64,000 nucleotides of DNA from Acidobacteriota bacterium (GTDB lineage Bacteria > Acidobacteriota > Thermoanaerobaculia > Multivoradales > J023): the NCBI GenBank assembly GCA_029263395.1, contig JAJCXO010000206.1:1-64000 (forward strand), written 5' to 3'. Below are positions 47,764 to 56,026 of the stretch, in pieces (position 1 is the first letter of the stretch; each line of letters opens with the position of its first letter). The position numbers and the translations under genes were made by a program. The notes under the pieces were generated by a model. It saw nothing but the letters and a program-made list of their open reading frames with translations, made no database searches and was not told the origin of the DNA.

Positions 47764-48606
47764 TTACTGAATCGGCGCCAACAACTCAGGCGCGGTCACC
47801 AACTGGCGCACACCGTGGGACTCGGTCTCACCGAAAATATTGTCACTTTCAGCCCAACGGTGCAGCGATGCGATATCGAGCTTCGCACACGTCGGTCGGA
47901 CGCTCCAGGTCACCTTGAACGGCGAACACTCAGACTGAGTGAAGTCCGGTCCGGTGCTGGACCCGAAGAATTCCACCGGGTCGCCGGTTCCGCTCGGCAG
48001 CGAGGCCGCCTGATGAAAGTCATTACGCACCGTACCGTTGTAGGCAAATTCAGCAAAATCCAAGGCGTTGCTATCATTTACGACTAGGAACGTCTGGGCC
48101 TCGACGCGAAGGAGCGGCTCGCCGCAGGTATCCGTCACGCAAGCATTGAGGGTGGGTCCCGGCGTCTCGATGGGGCAACTGGTGTGAACCCAATGCACTT
48201 CGATCGTGTCACCTGGTTTGACTTTCCCGTACGCACCCTCGAGCGGCTCGAGCTCGGCCTCGGTCAGGTCCGCCGTCTCGTTACAGGCATAACCGCCGTA
48301 ATCGCTGTCGTCGACGAAGACGCTGAACCCAGGGCCTTTGTGCTCGGCGTTGGTGTGGGTGTGGAGGTTACACAGATTCATCTCACTGGGCGCTGGCGCC
48401 CGATCGATCGGAGTGGTGTTGAGTCCATGGGGGTTAGAGATATCCCGTGGTGTCTGTGGACCGGCATCGACACACAGAGCAGGCGTTTCGACAACCGCTT
48501 CCGGCTCAGGTTGCACCGCGGCGGTTTCGGCGGTCTCGGTGGGTTCAGAACCGCAACCAGAGAAGATCAAAGCGATAGCGGTGAAGAGGATCAAACAGCG
48601 ACTCAT
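47764..48606 (-). CDS. Delta-class carbonic anhydrase, lipoprotein
   Basis: A 280-residue lipoprotein (lipobox FSGC after IALI; AGGAGA before the ATG at 48606). The sequence matches delta-class carbonic anhydrase: FGPQTPRDI-like GPQTPRDISNPHG, NLCNLHTHTNAEHKGPGF with the zinc-binding histidine region, IEVHWVHTSC, and SLHRWAESDNIFG. This class was first found in diatoms and catalyses CO2 hydration with zinc; bacterial members exist but are uncommon. A periplasmic or surface location would serve bicarbonate supply or pH. An acidic Thr/Glu linker follows the lipid anchor. Confidence 0.8.
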   Translation of the reverse strand: MSRCLILFTAIALIFSGCGSEPTETAETAAVQPEPEAVVETPALCVDAGPQTPRDISNPHGLNTTPIDRAPAPSEMNLCNLHTHTNAEHKGPGFSVFVDDSDYGGYACNETADLTEAELEPLEGAYGKVKPGDTIEVHWVHTSCPIETPGPTLNACVTDTCGEPLLRVEAQTFLVVNDSNALDFAEFAYNGTVRNDFHQAASLPSGTGDPVEFFGSSTGPDFTQSECSPFKVTWSVRPTCAKLDIASLHRWAESDNIFGETESHGVRQLVTAPELLAPIQ

Positions 48607-48736
48607 GGGGTTCTCCTGAAGAAAATTGGACACACTTTTGCCCTGAAAGGCTCACTTGGCGAGACTGTCACCAGTGTCATGGCCATCCTATACAGGAATC
48701 TTCGTAGGATCCGAGTGGCCAGATTCAAAGCCACAG

Positions 48737-49117: not shown

Positions 49118-49272
49118 CAAGACGCCACAATCTCGACCGAGAGGCAAGACGCCCTGTGAAAGTTAGGCCCTTGATGTTACTTGTTGGCGGTGACGAGCGA
49201 AACGTACGGTGTCAGCTACGCGGGCGTTGGCCTAGCGATCCACTCACTCGACATTCCTCAAAGGATATGGAT

Positions 49273-49734
49273 ATGACCCACCTCACTCAAAAGACTCGCT
49301 CCCTCCCCGATCTCATCGTGTTGTTGCTGCTGTTTTTTGCCGCTAGCACCCAGGTAGCTGCCCAAGGCGCCACTGCAGCCGGCGCCACTGCAGCCGGCGC
49401 CACTGTAGCCAGCGGATCTTGGACCAAGAAGACGCAGTCTGCGAGCGGTACCTGGAAGATCACCGAAGCCGGCGACCAATTGAAGTTCGAGGTCAGTAGC
49501 GACTTCAAGACTCGCAAAGCGCCCGATCTGAAGATTTTTCTCTCTCCACTGACCGCCAGCGAAGCTCAGAATAACAACGCCGTCAACGAGTCGCTTTTAG
49601 TTGCTGAACTGCCCAAGGTTTCGGGCAGCTTCGAGGTCACCTTGCCCGCGGGCACCAACCTCAGTGATTACAACAGCGTCCTCGTTCACTGTGAGAAGTA
49701 CACCAAGCTGTGGGTAGCCTCGGATCTCCACTGA
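49273..49734 (+). CDS. Exported DM13-domain protein
   Basis: The 153-residue product has a signal peptide (LIVLLLLFFAASTQVAAQ), a Gly-Ala-Thr repeat linker and a DM13 domain (about 45-150) with the marker SVLVHCEKYTKLWVASDL including its conserved Cys. DM13 proteins are thought to be extracytoplasmic, possibly in electron transfer. AAGGA is 7 bases ahead of the ATG at 49273. An ATG 6 bases earlier is too close to the SD. Confidence 0.82.
   Translation: MTHLTQKTRSLPDLIVLLLLFFAASTQVAAQGATAAGATAAGATVASGSWTKKTQSASGTWKITEAGDQLKFEVSSDFKTRKAPDLKIFLSPLTASEAQNNNAVNESLLVAELPKVSGSFEVTLPAGTNLSDYNSVLVHCEKYTKLWVASDLH
49366..49410. repeat. 15-bp tandem repeat, 3 units
   Basis: Three copies of a 15-bp unit beginning GGCGCCACTG occur in the DM13 gene; the first two are identical, the third has one change. 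They encode GATAA repeats between signal peptide and domain. Confidence 0.9.
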
Positions 49735-49758: not shown

Positions 49759-50484
49759 CTACCGGACGATGATCTCCTCGCCGAGTTCGACGCGACCACC
49801 CGCCTCGAGCACGGCGCCACAATCGGCGTCGAGATCACCGGCCGGTGCTGGCAACCGGTTCGGCGATTGTAAAACAACCGGCTGGTAACGTCCGATCCCC
49901 TCGGTAGCCGCTCGCAGGCTCAGTCGTCCCTCAATGGAGACACAGTCCGAGGAGCTGGTCTCCTCGCTCACACCCGTCTCCGCGGGTAGACAACGAGCCA
50001 CCAGCTGCCGGTCGTTAAGATAGAGACGCAGTTCGAGATGTTGATCGGGATCACCTTCGGCGTCGAGGACCAGGACATCACCGGGGCGTGCAGTCTGCCC
50101 ACGGAAGGCGACTGTACTGTGCTCGACGCGAGTGGCGAGACTGAGCTCCGGCGGTTCGCTCCACCGGGGACTGAAAATAGCCATTGCCAACCCAGCAGCG
50201 GCAGCCAACGAGGCGACCGGCCACCAACCACGACTGGACGTCAGGGGTGATACCTGCGGCGCGTCCAGTCTTCGATCCCGGATCCGTCGTCGCACTTGCT
50301 GCTGCCAATCGGCAGCGGGCTCTTCAGCCTTCCCCAATTCGGCAAGGTCTCGCATGAGCGTTTCGTAGGCTGCCCGCTGCTCCACACAGTCAGGACAGGA
50401 GACAAAGTGGCCGGTCAGCGACAGTCCGGATTCCAATCGTTCAAGGCCTTCGCTCTCGAACCGTCGACAAGGGCTCACGCTCAT
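49759..50484 (-). CDS. Zinc-finger anti-sigma factor
   Basis: A 241-residue protein with the anti-sigma finger HxxxC-type HFVSCPDC (residues about 26-33), a short membrane helix (WWPVASLAAAAGLAMAIF, near 87-105) and a beta-rich outer domain. It overlaps the ECF sigma gene by 4 bp (ATGA) and is the last gene of the CHAT cluster. It should retain the sigma factor at the membrane. The outer domain (about 120-241) is a candidate target or sensor for the CHAT protease. Confidence 0.88.
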   Translation of the reverse strand: MSVSPCRRFESEGLERLESGLSLTGHFVSCPDCVEQRAAYETLMRDLAELGKAEEPAADWQQQVRRRIRDRRLDAPQVSPLTSSRGWWPVASLAAAAGLAMAIFSPRWSEPPELSLATRVEHSTVAFRGQTARPGDVLVLDAEGDPDQHLELRLYLNDRQLVARCLPAETGVSEETSSSDCVSIEGRLSLRAATEGIGRYQPVVLQSPNRLPAPAGDLDADCGAVLEAGGRVELGEEIIVR

Positions 50485-51254
50485 GGTGTGGCTCCTTTGG
50501 ACTCCAGGCAGTGGCGGAGCGCCGGCAGGGCTCGCACCACGCGAGCCCGCAGGGCCGGTGGGCGTTCATCTGCCACCCGCGCCATCTCGACATAGGACAA
50601 GCCTTGCTGGAATCGCAGCAGGATCGCATCGCGCACTCTTGGCCCGAGTGCGGCTAGACAGTCGGCCAACGCTGCCAAATGGCTGCGGGCGGAAAGCTGA
50701 TCGTCTTGGGGTGGCAATGGAGACGGCCGCTCGGGCAACCGATCGGTGAGCTGGAAACGTCGATCCCGACGACGGCGAATCTTGACGGCGTCGAGACTAC
50801 GATGGCGAGCGATGCCAAACAACCAAGTCCGCAGGGAAGAGTGCCCACGAAACCCCTCGAGACCATCATAGGCCTGGATGAACGTGGTCTGATGGACCTC
50901 TTCCGCCAATTCAGCATCACCTACCAAGTGTCGACAGTAGCGGTAGACGGCGGTCCCGAAGGTGTCCATCAACACCTCCAGAGCGCAGTCGAGATCGCCT
51001 CGGGCGATGGCCTGGCGAACGAGGGTTTCAGGCCTGTCGAGTGCGCGGTCAGGCTCAGGCTCGTCCAGCCGATCGCTGGTGCCGGGTGAGAGCACCCGGC
51101 TGGGATACCGGACCACAGCTGGCGATGGCCTCGAGTCGGGTTCCAACCCACTGCTCGACTTCGAGACCGTCTTGGGCGTGGAGACTGCGTTAGGCGTGGA
51201 GACCGTGCTAGGCATCGGACCGCTGCTAGGCAGCACTGGCTCAAATGTTCTCAC
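50481..51254 (-). CDS. ECF sigma factor of the CHAT cluster
   Basis: Residues about 78-250 form an ECF sigma factor: region 2 FGTAVYRYCRHLVGDAELAEEVHQTTFIQAYDGL and RTWLFGIARHRSLDAVK; region 4 GLSYVEMARVADERPPALRARVVRAL. An N-terminal extension of about 75 residues is Ser/Pro/Thr-rich and coded by imperfect 18-bp repeats (STPNAVSTPKTV). A strong hairpin at 51081-51100 lies inside this extension, so the true start may be further in. The gene overlaps the anti-sigma gene by 4 bp. Confidence 0.88.
   Translation of the reverse strand: MRTFEPVLPSSGPMPSTVSTPNAVSTPKTVSKSSSGLEPDSRPSPAVVRYPSRVLSPGTSDRLDEPEPDRALDRPETLVRQAIARGDLDCALEVLMDTFGTAVYRYCRHLVGDAELAEEVHQTTFIQAYDGLEGFRGHSSLRTWLFGIARHRSLDAVKIRRRRDRRFQLTDRLPERPSPLPPQDDQLSARSHLAALADCLAALGPRVRDAILLRFQQGLSYVEMARVADERPPALRARVVRALPALRHCLESKGATP
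51081..51100. terminator. 8-bp hairpin with AGAG loop near the 5' end of the sigma gene
   Basis: GCCGGGTG (51081-51088) and CACCCGGC (51093-51100) pair perfectly with a 4-nt loop. If the sigma factor starts inside the annotated frame, this is an intercistronic attenuator that would lower sigma expression relative to the CHAT gene. Confidence 0.4.
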
Positions 51255-51362
51255 GTGGTATCCCTTGAACCGTTCACTGCTGGAGATTTGGACCGCCAGC
51301 CCCTTAGGAACGTCGTTACTTCATGAGGCGACGCTGGCCGCTCAAAACGAACAGGTCGAGCC

Positions 51363-51851
51363 TCAAGGGATTGGGTCGACTGGATCAACCCCCGGCAAGA
51401 TCGCCTGGATATAGGGGTTCGGCAGCGGCGGGCGAATCGGGAAACAGCCTGCTGGGAGCTCCGCACAGGGCAGGAAGACACCGTCTTCGAACTGGGCAAT
51501 CGGTACCATGCGATAGAAGGTCATGGCTTCGACTGAGGTGAGATCCAACTCGACGGTTTCGGGGGTTTGTAGGAGTTCACTGTCGCCGAGCTCTAACCAT
51601 GCATTGGGATCGGTCAAAGAAGCAAAGCCGATGTAGGCCGCATCGGGGCCGCCGACCGAAATCTTCAATTGCTGGTCGGTTTGCTGCCAGGTGAAGAATC
51701 CACCTTCGCCACCCGAACTGTCGGTGGGATCATCGGACGGTGCTGCGATGGCGACCTGGGGCGACCAGCCGAGCTGACCGAGAGTCAAACCAGCGCCGAA
51801 AATCGTCAGCGCGGCACAAACTATGAGGGATAGACCAAACCAGTGTTTCAT
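51363..51851 (-). CDS. Small exported protein of the CHAT cluster, unknown family
   Basis: A 162-residue product with an N-terminal signal or anchor (GLSLIVCAALTIFGAGLTLG), a Gly/Ser-rich linker (DDPTDSSGGEGG) and a beta-rich part of about 90 residues ending in a proline-rich tail with two cysteines. AGGAG is 6 bases ahead of the ATG. It lies between the CHAT gene and the sigma gene on the same strand, so it is probably co-transcribed. No family recognised; a ligand-sensing or substrate role is possible. Confidence 0.7.
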   Translation of the reverse strand: MKHWFGLSLIVCAALTIFGAGLTLGQLGWSPQVAIAAPSDDPTDSSGGEGGFFTWQQTDQQLKISVGGPDAAYIGFASLTDPNAWLELGDSELLQTPETVELDLTSVEAMTFYRMVPIAQFEDGVFLPCAELPAGCFPIRPPLPNPYIQAILPGVDPVDPIP

Positions 51852-51911
51852 GAGGTACTCCTAGGTTGAGTTGAGGTTTTGGCAACAGGTAGTGTTCACT
51901 GCATCGAAGTT

Positions 51912-54437
51912 TCACGGAGCCAACGGTGTCGACTGGTTGAGGCTTGTCGGTCTTGGCCGATCGGCGAACAACCCCAGGACCACAAATGGCGCCCAGGTGG
52001 CAACCGGCTGCCCGACAGCGATGAGCTCACGTTGGGCGCTGGCCAGGGCAAAGACCGGGTCCTCGAGCCCGCCGTGGCGATAGAACGCAAGCGCAACGGC
52101 TTCAGCATCAGCATCGGGAACCGACACCAACGACGCCACCACGGCTTCGCTGCCAGCGGCGAGAAATACCGCACCGAGGGAGCCCCACAGCTCACGCCCT
52201 GGGCGCGCTGCCGAGGCGCAGGTTGCCAACACAGTGAGGCGCGGGGCACGAGTCTTGGCCAGCAGGACATCTGCCGCCAACGGCCCGTCAGCGAGTGCGA
52301 TCCATGGTCCACCAGGGCCGAGGCCGGTGTGGGTTGCGAGATGCAACACGGCGGGCCGAGTCGACTCGTGCCAAAGGCCCTGCTCTGCAGCATCGCCGAG
52401 CCAAGGTGTCGACCCGACGAGCTCGGCAACCGCAATCGCCTCGGAACGCGCCCGCGGTAGATCACCCAGCGGATCGCCAAGCACCAACGGCGGGCCGACC
52501 TCGCCCCTGGGCCGCTCCAGCAACGCGGCCAGCGCCTCCAGGCTCGGCACGTACGTCACCGGATGGCGCTCGACCAGATATCGCCCGTCGATTCGCAACG
52601 CGGCAAACGGTAAACGACCGAGGGCACCATCGGTCACGATCATCAAAGGCTCGTCAGCTCCCGGAAGCCCGCTCGTCGGCAAGACTTGGGCACCCAATTG
52701 TGCCGCCAGTTGGTGGTCGTCCAAGTTGGCGAGAAATGTATCCACAGTGGCCTCGATATCCGCCGAGTCACCGAGTCGACGCCAGGATCCCGCGACGCCA
52801 CTCAAAACCCATAGTGCGCCATCAGCTTCGAAATAGCTCAACACCGACCTATGCCGCAGGTTGTGGCGCAACTCGCCCACCGGCCGCGGTTCGGGTGACG
52901 GCGCGGCAGCAACCGCTGGCAACAACCCTTCGAGCACCCGCAAGCGTTCCAGCGCGGCGGCGCCAACATCGACTCGCTCCGGATCGGAGAACTTCGGTAC
53001 CGTCTCGCTATCGGCCACCGTCTTGCTATCGGCCACCGTCTTGCCATGGTCTACCGTCGCATCGAGACCTCGGACAAAGGCGTCGAGAAAGGTGCGCGCC
53101 CGCGCTCGCTCGACGATCGCCAGTGCCTCGTCGGAGCGCCCTTGATGCAACAGTAACAGAAAAAGCGCTTCGAAGGTCTGTCTCTTCTTCTCGAGCAACC
53201 ACGGCTTGAGGGTGTCGAGGGCGAGCGCACGACGCATCGCTTCGACCTCGACGATAGCGGCCCGATATGCAGCCTCAGCGGCAACAAGGTTACCCCGGGC
53301 CTCCTCCACTCTCCCCAGCAGCTGTTGCAAGGTCCAGATCCAGTCTGTCACTGGCGAGGCGACGAGCGCCGTTGCCAGATCCCGGGCGGCTGCGTCCCAG
53401 CGCCCTTCCTGATGAGCCAACCGAGCACGATAATAAAGTAGCGAGGTCGGCAGACGCCGATCTTGGCCGGGGCTCTGATCATGAAGACCCTGATCACCAC
53501 GGCCCTGATCACCGAGACTATGATCCGCCGCGTGTTCGAAGGCGGCATCCAAATGGAAGTGAGCCCGCTCCAACGCTCCACGTCGTAAAGCGATCTCGAC
53601 CAGGTTCAGGTGGGTCGAGCGGAAAAGCTGGCTGCCGAGCTCCACGCTGCTTTGATCGGAGCTCTCAGCCGCAACCTCGAGCGCCCGCAAGGTAGCATCG
53701 CGGGCGAGCGACAACCGCCCACTGTCGAGCCACAAGTCGCCTTCGTGCGCCAACAAGAAGGCATCATCCTGCGGACTGTCGGCGGCCAACCCCTCACGCA
53801 GCTGCTGCACCGCGCGGGCACTGTCCAGGTCACCAACTGCGGACAACACCCCCTGCTGCATCTCGACGGCCAACTTCTCTACCCGTGCGTCGCCTTCGCG
53901 ACGTGCCACCACCGCGGAGTCCAAGGCATAGGCGAGTGCTGACCGATACTGCGTCTGGCTCCATTCGAGGTAGGCCAAGAGGTACAGCGTCCAAGCCTCT
54001 TTGGATGCCTCGGCTGAAACTGGTTGCAGGCTGCCAGAGGTTTCGACCGTCAAGCGCTCGAGTTCAAGCGCTCGTTCGAGGGCCGTGCGAGCAGCCGTGA
54101 TCTCCTTTCGATCACGCCAGATGCTGGACGCCAGGCGTAACACTTCAGCATGCTGTCGGGTACCCGCCAAACGTCCGGACCAAGCCAGAACTTCGTCGAG
54201 GTGGCCCAGCTCGAGCTGAGAGCGGGCCGCCCCCAACCCGGCCTTGGCATCACCCTCAGCAGCAAACGCAGCAGCACAAACCTCGGCCGCTTTGGAAGGG
54301 TCTCCGGCCTGCAACAAGGCCTCACACGAGCGCTGGCCAGGATGACAACCGAGCACAGCACACCCTGCCATCAGCACCAAACCGCCGGCTGAGGACCAGG
54401 GACGCCGAAGCAAAAGTGAGGGATTCATCGCAACCAT
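51912..54437 (-). CDS. TPR-CHAT caspase-like protease, lipoprotein
   Basis: An 841-residue protein with a signal peptide and lipobox-like AVLGC near residue 31, so it is probably lipid-anchored outside the cytoplasmic membrane. TPR-like helices fill about residues 35-480. A repetitive linker (TVADSKTVADSETV) precedes the C-terminal CHAT domain (about 560-830). The catalytic dyad is intact: His in VLHLATHTGLG and Cys in TVLATCASA. CHAT proteases cut specific partners, as in the Craspase (gRAMP-TPR-CHAT) complex. The first gene of a four-gene unit with an exported protein, ECF sigma and anti-sigma. An in-frame second ATG lies at 54428. Confidence 0.9.
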   Translation of the reverse strand: MVAMNPSLLLRRPWSSAGGLVLMAGCAVLGCHPGQRSCEALLQAGDPSKAAEVCAAAFAAEGDAKAGLGAARSQLELGHLDEVLAWSGRLAGTRQHAEVLRLASSIWRDRKEITAARTALERALELERLTVETSGSLQPVSAEASKEAWTLYLLAYLEWSQTQYRSALAYALDSAVVARREGDARVEKLAVEMQQGVLSAVGDLDSARAVQQLREGLAADSPQDDAFLLAHEGDLWLDSGRLSLARDATLRALEVAAESSDQSSVELGSQLFRSTHLNLVEIALRRGALERAHFHLDAAFEHAADHSLGDQGRGDQGLHDQSPGQDRRLPTSLLYYRARLAHQEGRWDAAARDLATALVASPVTDWIWTLQQLLGRVEEARGNLVAAEAAYRAAIVEVEAMRRALALDTLKPWLLEKKRQTFEALFLLLLHQGRSDEALAIVERARARTFLDAFVRGLDATVDHGKTVADSKTVADSETVPKFSDPERVDVGAAALERLRVLEGLLPAVAAAPSPEPRPVGELRHNLRHRSVLSYFEADGALWVLSGVAGSWRRLGDSADIEATVDTFLANLDDHQLAAQLGAQVLPTSGLPGADEPLMIVTDGALGRLPFAALRIDGRYLVERHPVTYVPSLEALAALLERPRGEVGPPLVLGDPLGDLPRARSEAIAVAELVGSTPWLGDAAEQGLWHESTRPAVLHLATHTGLGPGGPWIALADGPLAADVLLAKTRAPRLTVLATCASAARPGRELWGSLGAVFLAAGSEAVVASLVSVPDADAEAVALAFYRHGGLEDPVFALASAQRELIAVGQPVATWAPFVVLGLFADRPRPTSLNQSTPLAP

Positions 54438-54602
54438 TCGATTAATAGTTAAGGGAGGGACAGTTCGGACTTAGCCGGTCCACTATGAAACGATCGTGGA
54501 CCACTCACCTAGGAAGACGGTCTTCACCTAGGAAGACTCTGCAACCGTCCGAATTGTCCCACCCACGTTGATCTTTTTTCGTCGTTATCGTCTGGGGGCT
54601 GG

Positions 54603-54878
54603 ATGTCTGCACGAATCTTCCGGCCGCCAACCACCGGATATGATCCGACTCTCGAGCAACGTTTAGAAGCGGCAAACCATGGATGCAGTCCATCCAGCAG
54701 GGCCGACTCAGCACCTCTACGGTCGCCACAAGGGGCCCCGTTGCCAGATGAGCTTCAACAGCGCCTGATCCCAGGATCGACGATCTACTGGCGAATCGTC
54801 GAGCGGGCTGAGCTCGAACGCCGGGAGTCGGCGCTGTTTCGCTTTCAGCTCGCAGCCGAGAGCCCCTCGCATCCTTGA
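54603..54878 (+). CDS. Short open frame, uncertain
   Basis: A 91-codon frame in the 609-bp gap 54438-55046, divergent from the CHAT gene. Its C-terminal part (IPGSTIYWRIVERAEL, then FRFQLA) reads like the ending strands of exported beta domains attached to some anti-sigma factors, so it may be a fragment. The N-terminal part is low complexity. No good SD. Nothing else is visible in this gap. Confidence 0.25.
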   Translation: MSARIFRPPTTGYDPTLEQRLEAANHGCSPSSRADSAPLRSPQGAPLPDELQQRLIPGSTIYWRIVERAELERRESALFRFQLAAESPSHP

Positions 54879-55046
54879 CTCGCCCGGCCACCTGCCTAGC
54901 TTTGGCGTTGATGCTGGTTGCGCCTCGCCAAGCTTGACACGCTGGCCAACATAACCACCCGTCATCCCGCCAACTGGGCCGCCTTCGTCTTGATCATCCA
55001 ATGTAGAATAGGCTAGCAGCACAATGGTCTCGACAAGGTCGTGCCT

Positions 55047-55382
55047 ATGCCTAGTGACGCCCAATCGATACATCCCACACTACCTGGTGATCTGCGGCCC
55101 CTCTTTTGGGACTACGATTTTCAAGATCTGTGCTGGGACGATGATCGAGCCCTGATCATCCGTCGAGTTTTGACCTCGGGCCCTTGGGACAGCGTGCAAT
55201 GGCTGCGTTCCAGAGTGAATGATGACACGCTGGGACGCTGGATCATCGACCACCAGGGCCGCGGGTTGAGTCCACAGCAACTTCGTTTTTGGCAATTGAT
55301 CCTCGATCTACCGACCGAGCAGGTTGATGGGTGGCTGGCTGACCGGCAAACCGATCCCTGGCATCACCGACAGGCCTCATGA
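55047..55382 (+). CDS. DUF6922-like protein, likely antitoxin partner of AbiEii-type toxin
   Basis: A 111-residue protein whose core (RVLTSGPWDSVQWLRSRVNDDTLGRWII ... LSPQQLRFWQLIL) matches small proteins usually encoded directly before AbiEii-like nucleotidyltransferases. Here the stop overlaps the next start by ATGA. By that context it is a candidate antitoxin or partner. The ATG at 55047 is preferred to a GTG two codons earlier because of AAGG 9 bases upstream. Confidence 0.75.
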   Translation: MPSDAQSIHPTLPGDLRPLFWDYDFQDLCWDDDRALIIRRVLTSGPWDSVQWLRSRVNDDTLGRWIIDHQGRGLSPQQLRFWQLILDLPTEQVDGWLADRQTDPWHHRQAS

Positions 55383-56026
55383 CGTTTCACTCCGAGGTCC
55401 TAACGACACCTCAGATCCACGCTCTTCACGCGATGGGACCGGCCATGACAACCGGTCACTTTTATCTTGCTGGAGGCACCGCCCTGGCCATCATCCTCGG
55501 GCACCGCCTGTCGGTTGACCTCGACTGGTTCACCCGTAAACGATTTGCAGATCCGATGCGTTTAGCCGCCGAGCTGCGAGATGACGGAATCCAGCTAAAG
55601 ACAACACGGGTGGAACGCGGCACTCTGCATGGCCATATCGACGATGTGCGGGTCAGTCTGCTCGAATATCGCTATCCATTGCTAGCTCCCGTCATCGTAT
55701 GGAGCGAGCATCAATGTGCACTCGTCTCGCTCGACGATATCGCTTGCATGAAGCTGTCTGCGATCAGTCAACGCGGAGCCAGGAAAGACTTCGTCGACCT
55801 CTACGCACTCGTCCAACGGCACCGACCGCTGGATGAGCTTCTGAAGCTGTACCAAAAGAAATACGACACGACAGATATCGGACATGTTCTAGTGTCCTTA
55901 GCCTACTTTGACGACGCCGAGCGAGAGCGGATGCCAAAGATGCTTTGGGATGTGAGCTGGCAGGATCTCAAGACTCAGATCCAGAGGTGGGTGCTGGACC
56001 TAGCGCTGCCCCCTGTGTCTGGGTAG
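55379..56026 (+). CDS. AbiEii/AbiGii-family nucleotidyltransferase toxin
   Basis: A 215-residue nucleotidyltransferase-fold protein. GGTALAIILGHRLSVDLDWF contains the GG and D-x-D motif of the AbiEii family, and KDFVDLYAL the downstream family motif. AbiEii proteins add nucleotides to tRNA or other targets and cause abortive infection in type IV systems. It overlaps its upstream partner by 4 bp. It could be an active toxin of a phage-defence module; activity is not shown by the sequence. Confidence 0.88.
   Translation: MTFHSEVLTTPQIHALHAMGPAMTTGHFYLAGGTALAIILGHRLSVDLDWFTRKRFADPMRLAAELRDDGIQLKTTRVERGTLHGHIDDVRVSLLEYRYPLLAPVIVWSEHQCALVSLDDIACMKLSAISQRGARKDFVDLYALVQRHRPLDELLKLYQKKYDTTDIGHVLVSLAYFDDAERERMPKMLWDVSWQDLKTQIQRWVLDLALPPVSG

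Follow-up and report, generated by a model that had tools for sequence, protein, structure and literature searches.

Proteases linked with sigma factors

Bacterial proteases with a caspase fold are known, for the most part, as effectors of immunity inside the cell. CalpL, a SAVED-Lon protease of the cytoplasm, is triggered by cyclic oligoadenylate (cf. the ring nuclease paper, PMC11417357). In type III-E CRISPR systems the TPR-CHAT protein Csx29 cleaves Csx30, which relieves the inhibition of an ECF-like, RpoE-like sigma factor, CASP-sigma (PMC10028731, PMC9729208); the substrates of CHAT proteases are commonly encoded nearby (PMC9729208). Operons with C14 metacaspases and sigma-70 factors are found in Myxococcus and relatives (PMC3501461), and there are EACC2/caspase loci with an ECF sigma factor and a TPR protein (PMC8195603).

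The locus which we have studied is found in a stretch of 64,000 nucleotides from an Acidobacteriota bacterium, which we will call the window. It combines a CHAT protease with an ECF sigma factor. This pairing is present in soil-type Acidobacteria, many times over in the genome of the window, and also in several further phyla; it looks widespread, and it would be an apparently undescribed route from extramembrane events to gene expression. In the literature searched for CHAT proteins together with ECF or anti-sigma factors, which did not include the 2021 reclassification of ECF sigma factors, the CRISPR papers were the only relevant ones; an earlier mention in the reclassification is possible.

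Organization and conservation of the locus

The locus occupies positions 49759-54437 of the window. Its four open reading frames are found at the place given in the preliminary description, all on the minus strand, in the order CHAT protease, small exported protein, ECF sigma factor and anti-sigma factor. The CHAT and small protein genes are separated by 60 bp, the small protein and sigma genes by 108 bp; the sigma and anti-sigma genes have a 4-bp overlap (ATGA). Judging from this spacing, it is plausible that the four genes form a single transcription unit.

Searches in whole genomes and named contigs with the CHAT and anti-sigma sequences gave six relatives besides the window. OFTM268, the congener, belongs to the same genus; P_S1_bin.14, gp7 AA5 and UBA5704 belong to the same order, by the kinship given by the search tool; Mor1 is a member of another class of Acidobacteriota and OFTM154 is a metagenome-assembled genome (MAG) labelled Gammaproteobacteria. 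The relatives of CHAT in genome contigs were found with an alignment of six sequences; a scan with a single CHAT sequence found nothing.

The preliminary description had made its proposal depend on a gene order shared with relatives. The complete set of four genes is present at all seven loci and the order is that of the window in six of them. The exception is Mor1: it has a divergent sigma/anti-sigma pair, which is separated from the CHAT and small protein genes by an S8 subtilase. The co-occurrence of the four families, which it had been suggested to survey, is seen at all seven loci; their linkage is far above chance. Matches which span the outer domain of the anti-sigma factor are found in 5 of 149 genomes of the class and in 3 of 396 genomes of the phylum, always at these loci; no paralogue of this domain is present among the open reading frames of the loci which we fetched. 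Since all seven loci hold the set, and the outer domain is found only there among the genomes searched, we conclude that the four genes are passed on together as one unit, with a patchy distribution in the phylum.

Features of the four proteins

The CHAT gene (51912-54437, minus strand) codes for a TPR-CHAT protein with a Pfam CHAT match (PF12770) of 111 bits, for a cut-off of 24. It belongs by family to the His/Cys-dyad proteases and is a predicted peptidase. The catalytic dyad H703/C740 is invariant in the seven sequences, the window copy included. A lipid-anchored protease with an intact dyad had been described from the window alone, and a cytoplasmic CHAT had been named as an observation that would speak against the proposal: a lipoprotein is predicted at each of the seven loci, with a small correction, because the lipidation cysteine common to the seven sequences is C31 (lipobox VLG-C), not C26. 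None of the seven sequences has Asp directly after this cysteine; by the Lol rule of E. coli, sorting to the outer membrane would be expected. If sorting is of the E. coli type, CHAT would be placed on the outer membrane, apart from the anti-sigma factor, a point against the switch proposed below. The protein probably starts at the ATG at 54428 (MNPS), which corresponds to the start in the congener, rather than at 54437. Two inserts (52999-53044 and 53475-53518), made by short repeats similar to that of the sigma gene (see below), are specific to the window copy. When solved structures were searched with the CHAT profile, only TPR proteins were matched, with no CHAT structure above threshold.

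The small exported protein (51363-51851, minus strand) has a signal peptide, a short beta-rich region, a C-terminal Cys pair and a Pro-rich tail. Nothing specific was found for it in PADLOC, NCBIfam and Pfam, and its AlphaFold model is of low confidence (pLDDT 48). It was already recognized as exported in the preliminary description, which agrees with its signal peptide and with the relatives: the same slot is filled at all seven loci, AA5 and OFTM154 included, by a small exported open reading frame with a Cys pair and a Pro-rich tail. The sequence changes rapidly (18-29% beyond the congener) and can hardly be aligned.

The sigma factor (50481-51254, minus strand) has Pfam matches above cut-off with Sigma70_r2 and r4_2 and shows 37-73% identity to its relatives. 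It had been presented as an ECF sigma factor with a long Ser/Pro extension: the assignment as ECF stands, the description of the extension needs a correction. This N-terminal region is missing or different in the relatives, and repeat analysis of the sequence places an 18-bp tandem repeat behind it (51163-51231, minus strand). We reject it as a functional feature and consider it a non-conserved product of the repeat.

A sigma-dependent promoter and its targets had also been suggested as an object of search. A sigma-70 promoter scan gave no match. Comparison with the congener gives a weak candidate for an ECF-type element, GGGACAA-N16-GTCTTC (54532-54560, minus strand), upstream of CHAT in both genomes; it is not seen in relatives beyond the congener, and its single match in the 10.7-Mb genome yields no regulon. 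Remnants of a deleted ECF2-anti-sigma2-CHAT2 module are found in positions 54530-54995 (minus strand). They were detected by blastn against the congener, in which the module is intact (L050:933-5164): matches of 117, 123 and 69 bp correspond to the sigma2 upstream region, the anti-sigma2 3' end and the CHAT2 3' end.

The anti-sigma factor (49759-50484, minus strand) has the zinc motif HFVSCPDC near its N-terminus, which corresponds to H-x3-C-x2-C, with H26/C30/C33 invariant. One predicted membrane segment (residues 91-110 approximately) is followed by an Ig-like outer domain (about 112-241), which is kept at all seven loci. These features bear out the membrane anti-sigma factor with an outer domain which had been described; judged by hydropathy, the membrane segment is weak in the copy of the window and clear in the relatives. 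Also conserved are the C165/C181 pair of cysteines of the outer domain and a C-terminal (I/V)-x-V-R, the latter with a final Tyr in OFTM154. No Pfam family is matched; the N-terminal half matches the NCBIfam 'antisigma' model at 1e-7, below the model cut-off. In the AlphaFold model (pLDDT 76) there is a helical zinc domain, a membrane region of low confidence and a confident beta-sandwich, which resembles immunoglobulin-like domains in Foldseek, with modest TM-scores. A search of solved structures gave a weak match of the zinc domain with RsiW (E 0.45). The gene adjoins that of its ECF sigma factor at all seven loci. The protein is classed as a class I zinc anti-sigma factor (ZAS), a class from which inhibition of the sigma factor is predicted.

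CHAT genes and ECF sigma factors throughout the genome

The locus is one instance of a theme which is repeated throughout the genome. In the 10.7 Mb of the window's genome we have found 42 CHAT and 140 ECF matches. We count a CHAT gene as near if it lies at most 6 kb upstream of an ECF gene or 3 kb downstream of one: this is the case for 22 of the 42, compared with 4.9 expected (P about 2e-10), and 18 of them are on the same strand. Subtilases, taken as a control, are near an ECF gene in 4 out of 25 cases. In Mor1 the corresponding figures are 5 of 21 CHATs, with 1.6 expected, among the ECF matches listed.

A common layout in the loci which we fetched is an ECF sigma factor, a one-pass protein with H-x3-C-x2-C and a TPR-CHAT with a signal-like N-terminus; the anti-sigma factors which adjoin linked CHATs are membrane proteins with outer domains. 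A fixed search for the three genes with the strict motif finds them at 9 of 40 CHAT genes, the window not counted. The triad is also seen in MAGs of Aminicenantes, Pyrinomonadaceae, Chloracidobacterium, Myxococcaceae, Deltaproteobacteria, Chloroflexi and Acidimicrobiia. Among distant CHAT genes 23 of 69 have it, a figure which is no survey fraction, since these loci were drawn by their similarity to the window CHAT. No ECF gene is in range of CHAT in the three cyanobacterial loci examined.

ECF genes are also found beside Ser/Thr kinases, in at least 38 cases in the window's genome when counted by eye; two of the 22 ECF-linked CHAT cases (contigs 67 and 162) are ECF-kinase pairs. Because ECF genes adjoin many kinases as well, linkage alone is no proof of an upstream role for CHAT.

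A possible extracytoplasmic switch

Other features of the linked genes bear on the mechanism. By a crude hydropathy rule, 19 of the 22 ECF-linked CHATs in the window's genome have a signal-like N-terminus, compared with 7 of 18 unlinked ones (Fisher P 0.003). In 16 triads of this genome the similarity of the outer domains is correlated with that of the CHAT domains (rho about 0.36-0.37, Mantel p 0.004), while its correlation with the similarity of the sigma factors is rho 0.10 (p 0.16). The partial correlations are 0.35 for CHAT and outer domain given sigma (p 0.004) and 0.01 for sigma and outer domain given CHAT. With shuffled outer domains rho is 0.03 +/- 0.08, with a maximum of 0.18 among 40; it is 0.32 with composition-corrected scores and 0.40 when a near-duplicate is removed. 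The test was carried out within one genome, so that the relatedness of species is no confounder. Such co-variation is what a direct relationship between CHAT and outer domain predicts; shared ancestry or joint movement of adjacent genes could contribute part of it.

The sequences are consistent with an extracytoplasmic switch, in which a periplasmic CHAT would cut its own anti-sigma factor as site-1 protease and the small protein would be a cofactor, ligand or inhibitor. This may well be the case, a possibility which we place a little short of probable. The TPR-CHAT lipoprotein would face the periplasm, and the cytoplasmic zinc domain of the anti-sigma factor would keep the ECF sigma factor at the inner membrane, and its exposed Ig-like outer domain would share a compartment with CHAT. 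The protease would be activated by a periplasmic cue, detected through the TPR part, the small Cys/Pro-rich protein or the two together, and would then clip the outer domain or the juxtamembrane linker (site 1). The breakdown of the anti-sigma factor would be completed by general proteolysis, at site 2 and in the cytoplasm; this would free the sigma factor, which would probably transcribe its own operon too. An M50 site-2 protease is found in the window's genome. A single mechanism may not fit all cases, since the orientation of the triad varies and some linked CHATs look cytoplasmic (L157 and L158, in Chloroflexota). The idea of a caspase-like sensor, already put forward in the preliminary description, is partly supported: it has gained from the wider linkage of CHAT, ECF and anti-sigma genes and from the co-variation of CHAT with the outer domain, and the comparison with CalpL has proved not to be the closest one.

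The main rival of the protease switch is that CHAT is an output: the sigma/anti-sigma pair would sense envelope stress and transcribe the operon, and CHAT and the small protein would then attack other periplasmic substrates, in processes such as damage response, predation or cell death. A CHAT gene in the first place and a regulator pair in the last is the typical arrangement of autoregulated ECF operons, ECF sigma factors often control their own operon, and many of those in this genome adjoin other signalling genes such as kinases. We consider this rather unlikely, since the orientation of CHAT with respect to sigma is variable: it is rearranged in Mor1 and convergent in L076 and L109, while in L127, L149 and L161 an ECF-anti-sigma pair is flanked by two CHATs. 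Furthermore the outer domain co-varies with CHAT and not with sigma, a feature not called for if CHAT were an output. Binding alone could explain this matching, if CHAT were a non-proteolytic sensor of the outer domain and its peptidase activity irrelevant to signalling. However the dyad is retained in 51 of 52 ECF-linked CHATs (58 of 59 in unlinked ones), and such a sensor appears very improbable.

It is also conceivable that the substrate of CHAT is the small exported protein and not the anti-sigma factor: its cleavage would give a peptide, or the loss of a securin-like inhibitor, acting on the outer domain or on CHAT. Its slot is always filled in spite of the fast divergence of the sequence, and CHAT genes often have their substrates encoded next to them (PMC9729208). 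On the other hand such a gene is missing from most of the other ECF-anti-sigma-CHAT triads, so that it should be accessory, and its structure model is poor; we find this choice of substrate distinctly unlikely. As for an adjacency due to chance or housekeeping, without a functional link, it is hardly credible even in a genome which is dense in ECF genes. We reject it, given the conservation of all seven loci, including the rearranged one, and a genome-wide count of linked CHATs which is well above expectation and is not shared by subtilases.

Comparison with known systems

CalpL/CalpT/CalpS, which had been proposed as the analogue, share with the protease switch a protease which frees a sigma factor from its inhibitor. 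They are not the best comparison: a SAVED sensor, a Lon-type protease and a CARF part are all absent from the four proteins, as judged with Pfam, NCBIfam and PADLOC. A type III CRISPR module can also be rejected, since RAMP proteins (PF03787; Cas7-11/gRAMP) have no match in the whole genome. The caspase loci mentioned at the beginning (PMC3501461, PMC8195603) are similar in that caspase-fold proteases are genetically tied to sigma-70-type factors. However their proteases are caspases of C14 type, not CHAT, and no triad with an exported protease and a membrane anti-sigma factor is described in the available parts of these papers.

Craspase, which follows the same logic in the cytoplasm, is more similar: there too a TPR-CHAT with a His-Cys dyad is encoded together with an ECF sigma factor and an inhibitor, whose cleavage has been shown in that system and is proposed here. 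The differences lie in the compartment and in the inhibitor. The CHAT of our locus is an exported lipoprotein, so that the signal must be extracytoplasmic, and the candidate inhibitor is a one-pass zinc anti-sigma factor instead of the soluble Csx30. In its topology the locus is similar to DegS/RseP/RseA/sigmaE and RsiW/sigmaW, which also have a one-pass anti-sigma factor with an extracytoplasmic part, an ECF sigma factor and a site-2 protease; by analogy with them, a sequential cleavage at sites 1 and 2 may be proposed for this anti-sigma factor. The proposed site-1 protease is nevertheless different: it is a TPR-CHAT lipoprotein of caspase fold, whose gene accompanies those of its own sigma pair. 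Furthermore the RseA and RsiW systems have a single enzyme of HtrA or PrsW type, whereas here there are many parallel copies of CHAT.

We tentatively suggest that these genes could form a large new class of extracytoplasmic signalling systems, in which exported TPR-CHATs would be dedicated site-1 proteases of their own ECF sigma/anti-sigma pairs, with a dozen or more matched copies in a single genome and a spread over several phyla, as a counterpart and possible source of Csx29/Csx30/CASP-sigma; we regard this as somewhat doubtful. If true, it would point to a defined candidate substrate for dozens of CHAT proteins which are so far unassigned, account in part for the large set of ECF sigma factors in Acidobacteriota and give a hint at the origin of the Craspase sigma switch. 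By analogy, the closest known logic appears to be that of Csx29/Csx30/CASP-sigma, with DegS/RseA as the closest system for the membrane topology.

Genomic neighbourhood of the cluster

The four-gene cluster is adjoined by a small ORF and an AbiEii-type nucleotidyltransferase gene (window 55041–56026), possibly a type IV toxin-antitoxin system, and this pair has the same position beside the cluster in the congener OFTM268. Convergent with the anti-sigma gene lies the gene of an exported DM13-domain protein (49156–49734), which contains a 15-bp tandem repeat; the congener has a similar flank on this side. The window also encodes a lipoprotein-like delta carbonic anhydrase (47764–48633; Pfam CA_like, 203 bits), an enzyme uncommon among bacteria.

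In OFTM268 the cluster is also adjoined by a second, divergent ECF-anti-sigma-CHAT module (locus L050, 933–5164). Comparison with window positions 54530–54995 finds scraps of 117, 123 and 69 bp as its sole remnants: the module, intact in the congener, has been deleted in the window.

Arrangements in other loci

In one further triad, a small gene separates the anti-sigma gene from that of CHAT (L083:5965–6528); its product is exported or lipoprotein-like and has no Pfam match. Acidobacteria bacterium Mor1 has a gene for an exported S8 subtilase immediately upstream of CHAT (L017:5068–7953), divergent from the sigma/anti-sigma pair. A layout with two inward-facing CHAT genes flanking the ECF-anti-sigma pair recurs in L127, L132, L149 and L161, loci from Aminicenantes and one MAG labelled Clostridiales.

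A second large ECF pairing in the window organism's genome is with Ser/Thr kinases: of the 140 ECF genes on its contigs, at least 38 have a kinase gene as neighbour, in a genome with about 150 kinase matches.
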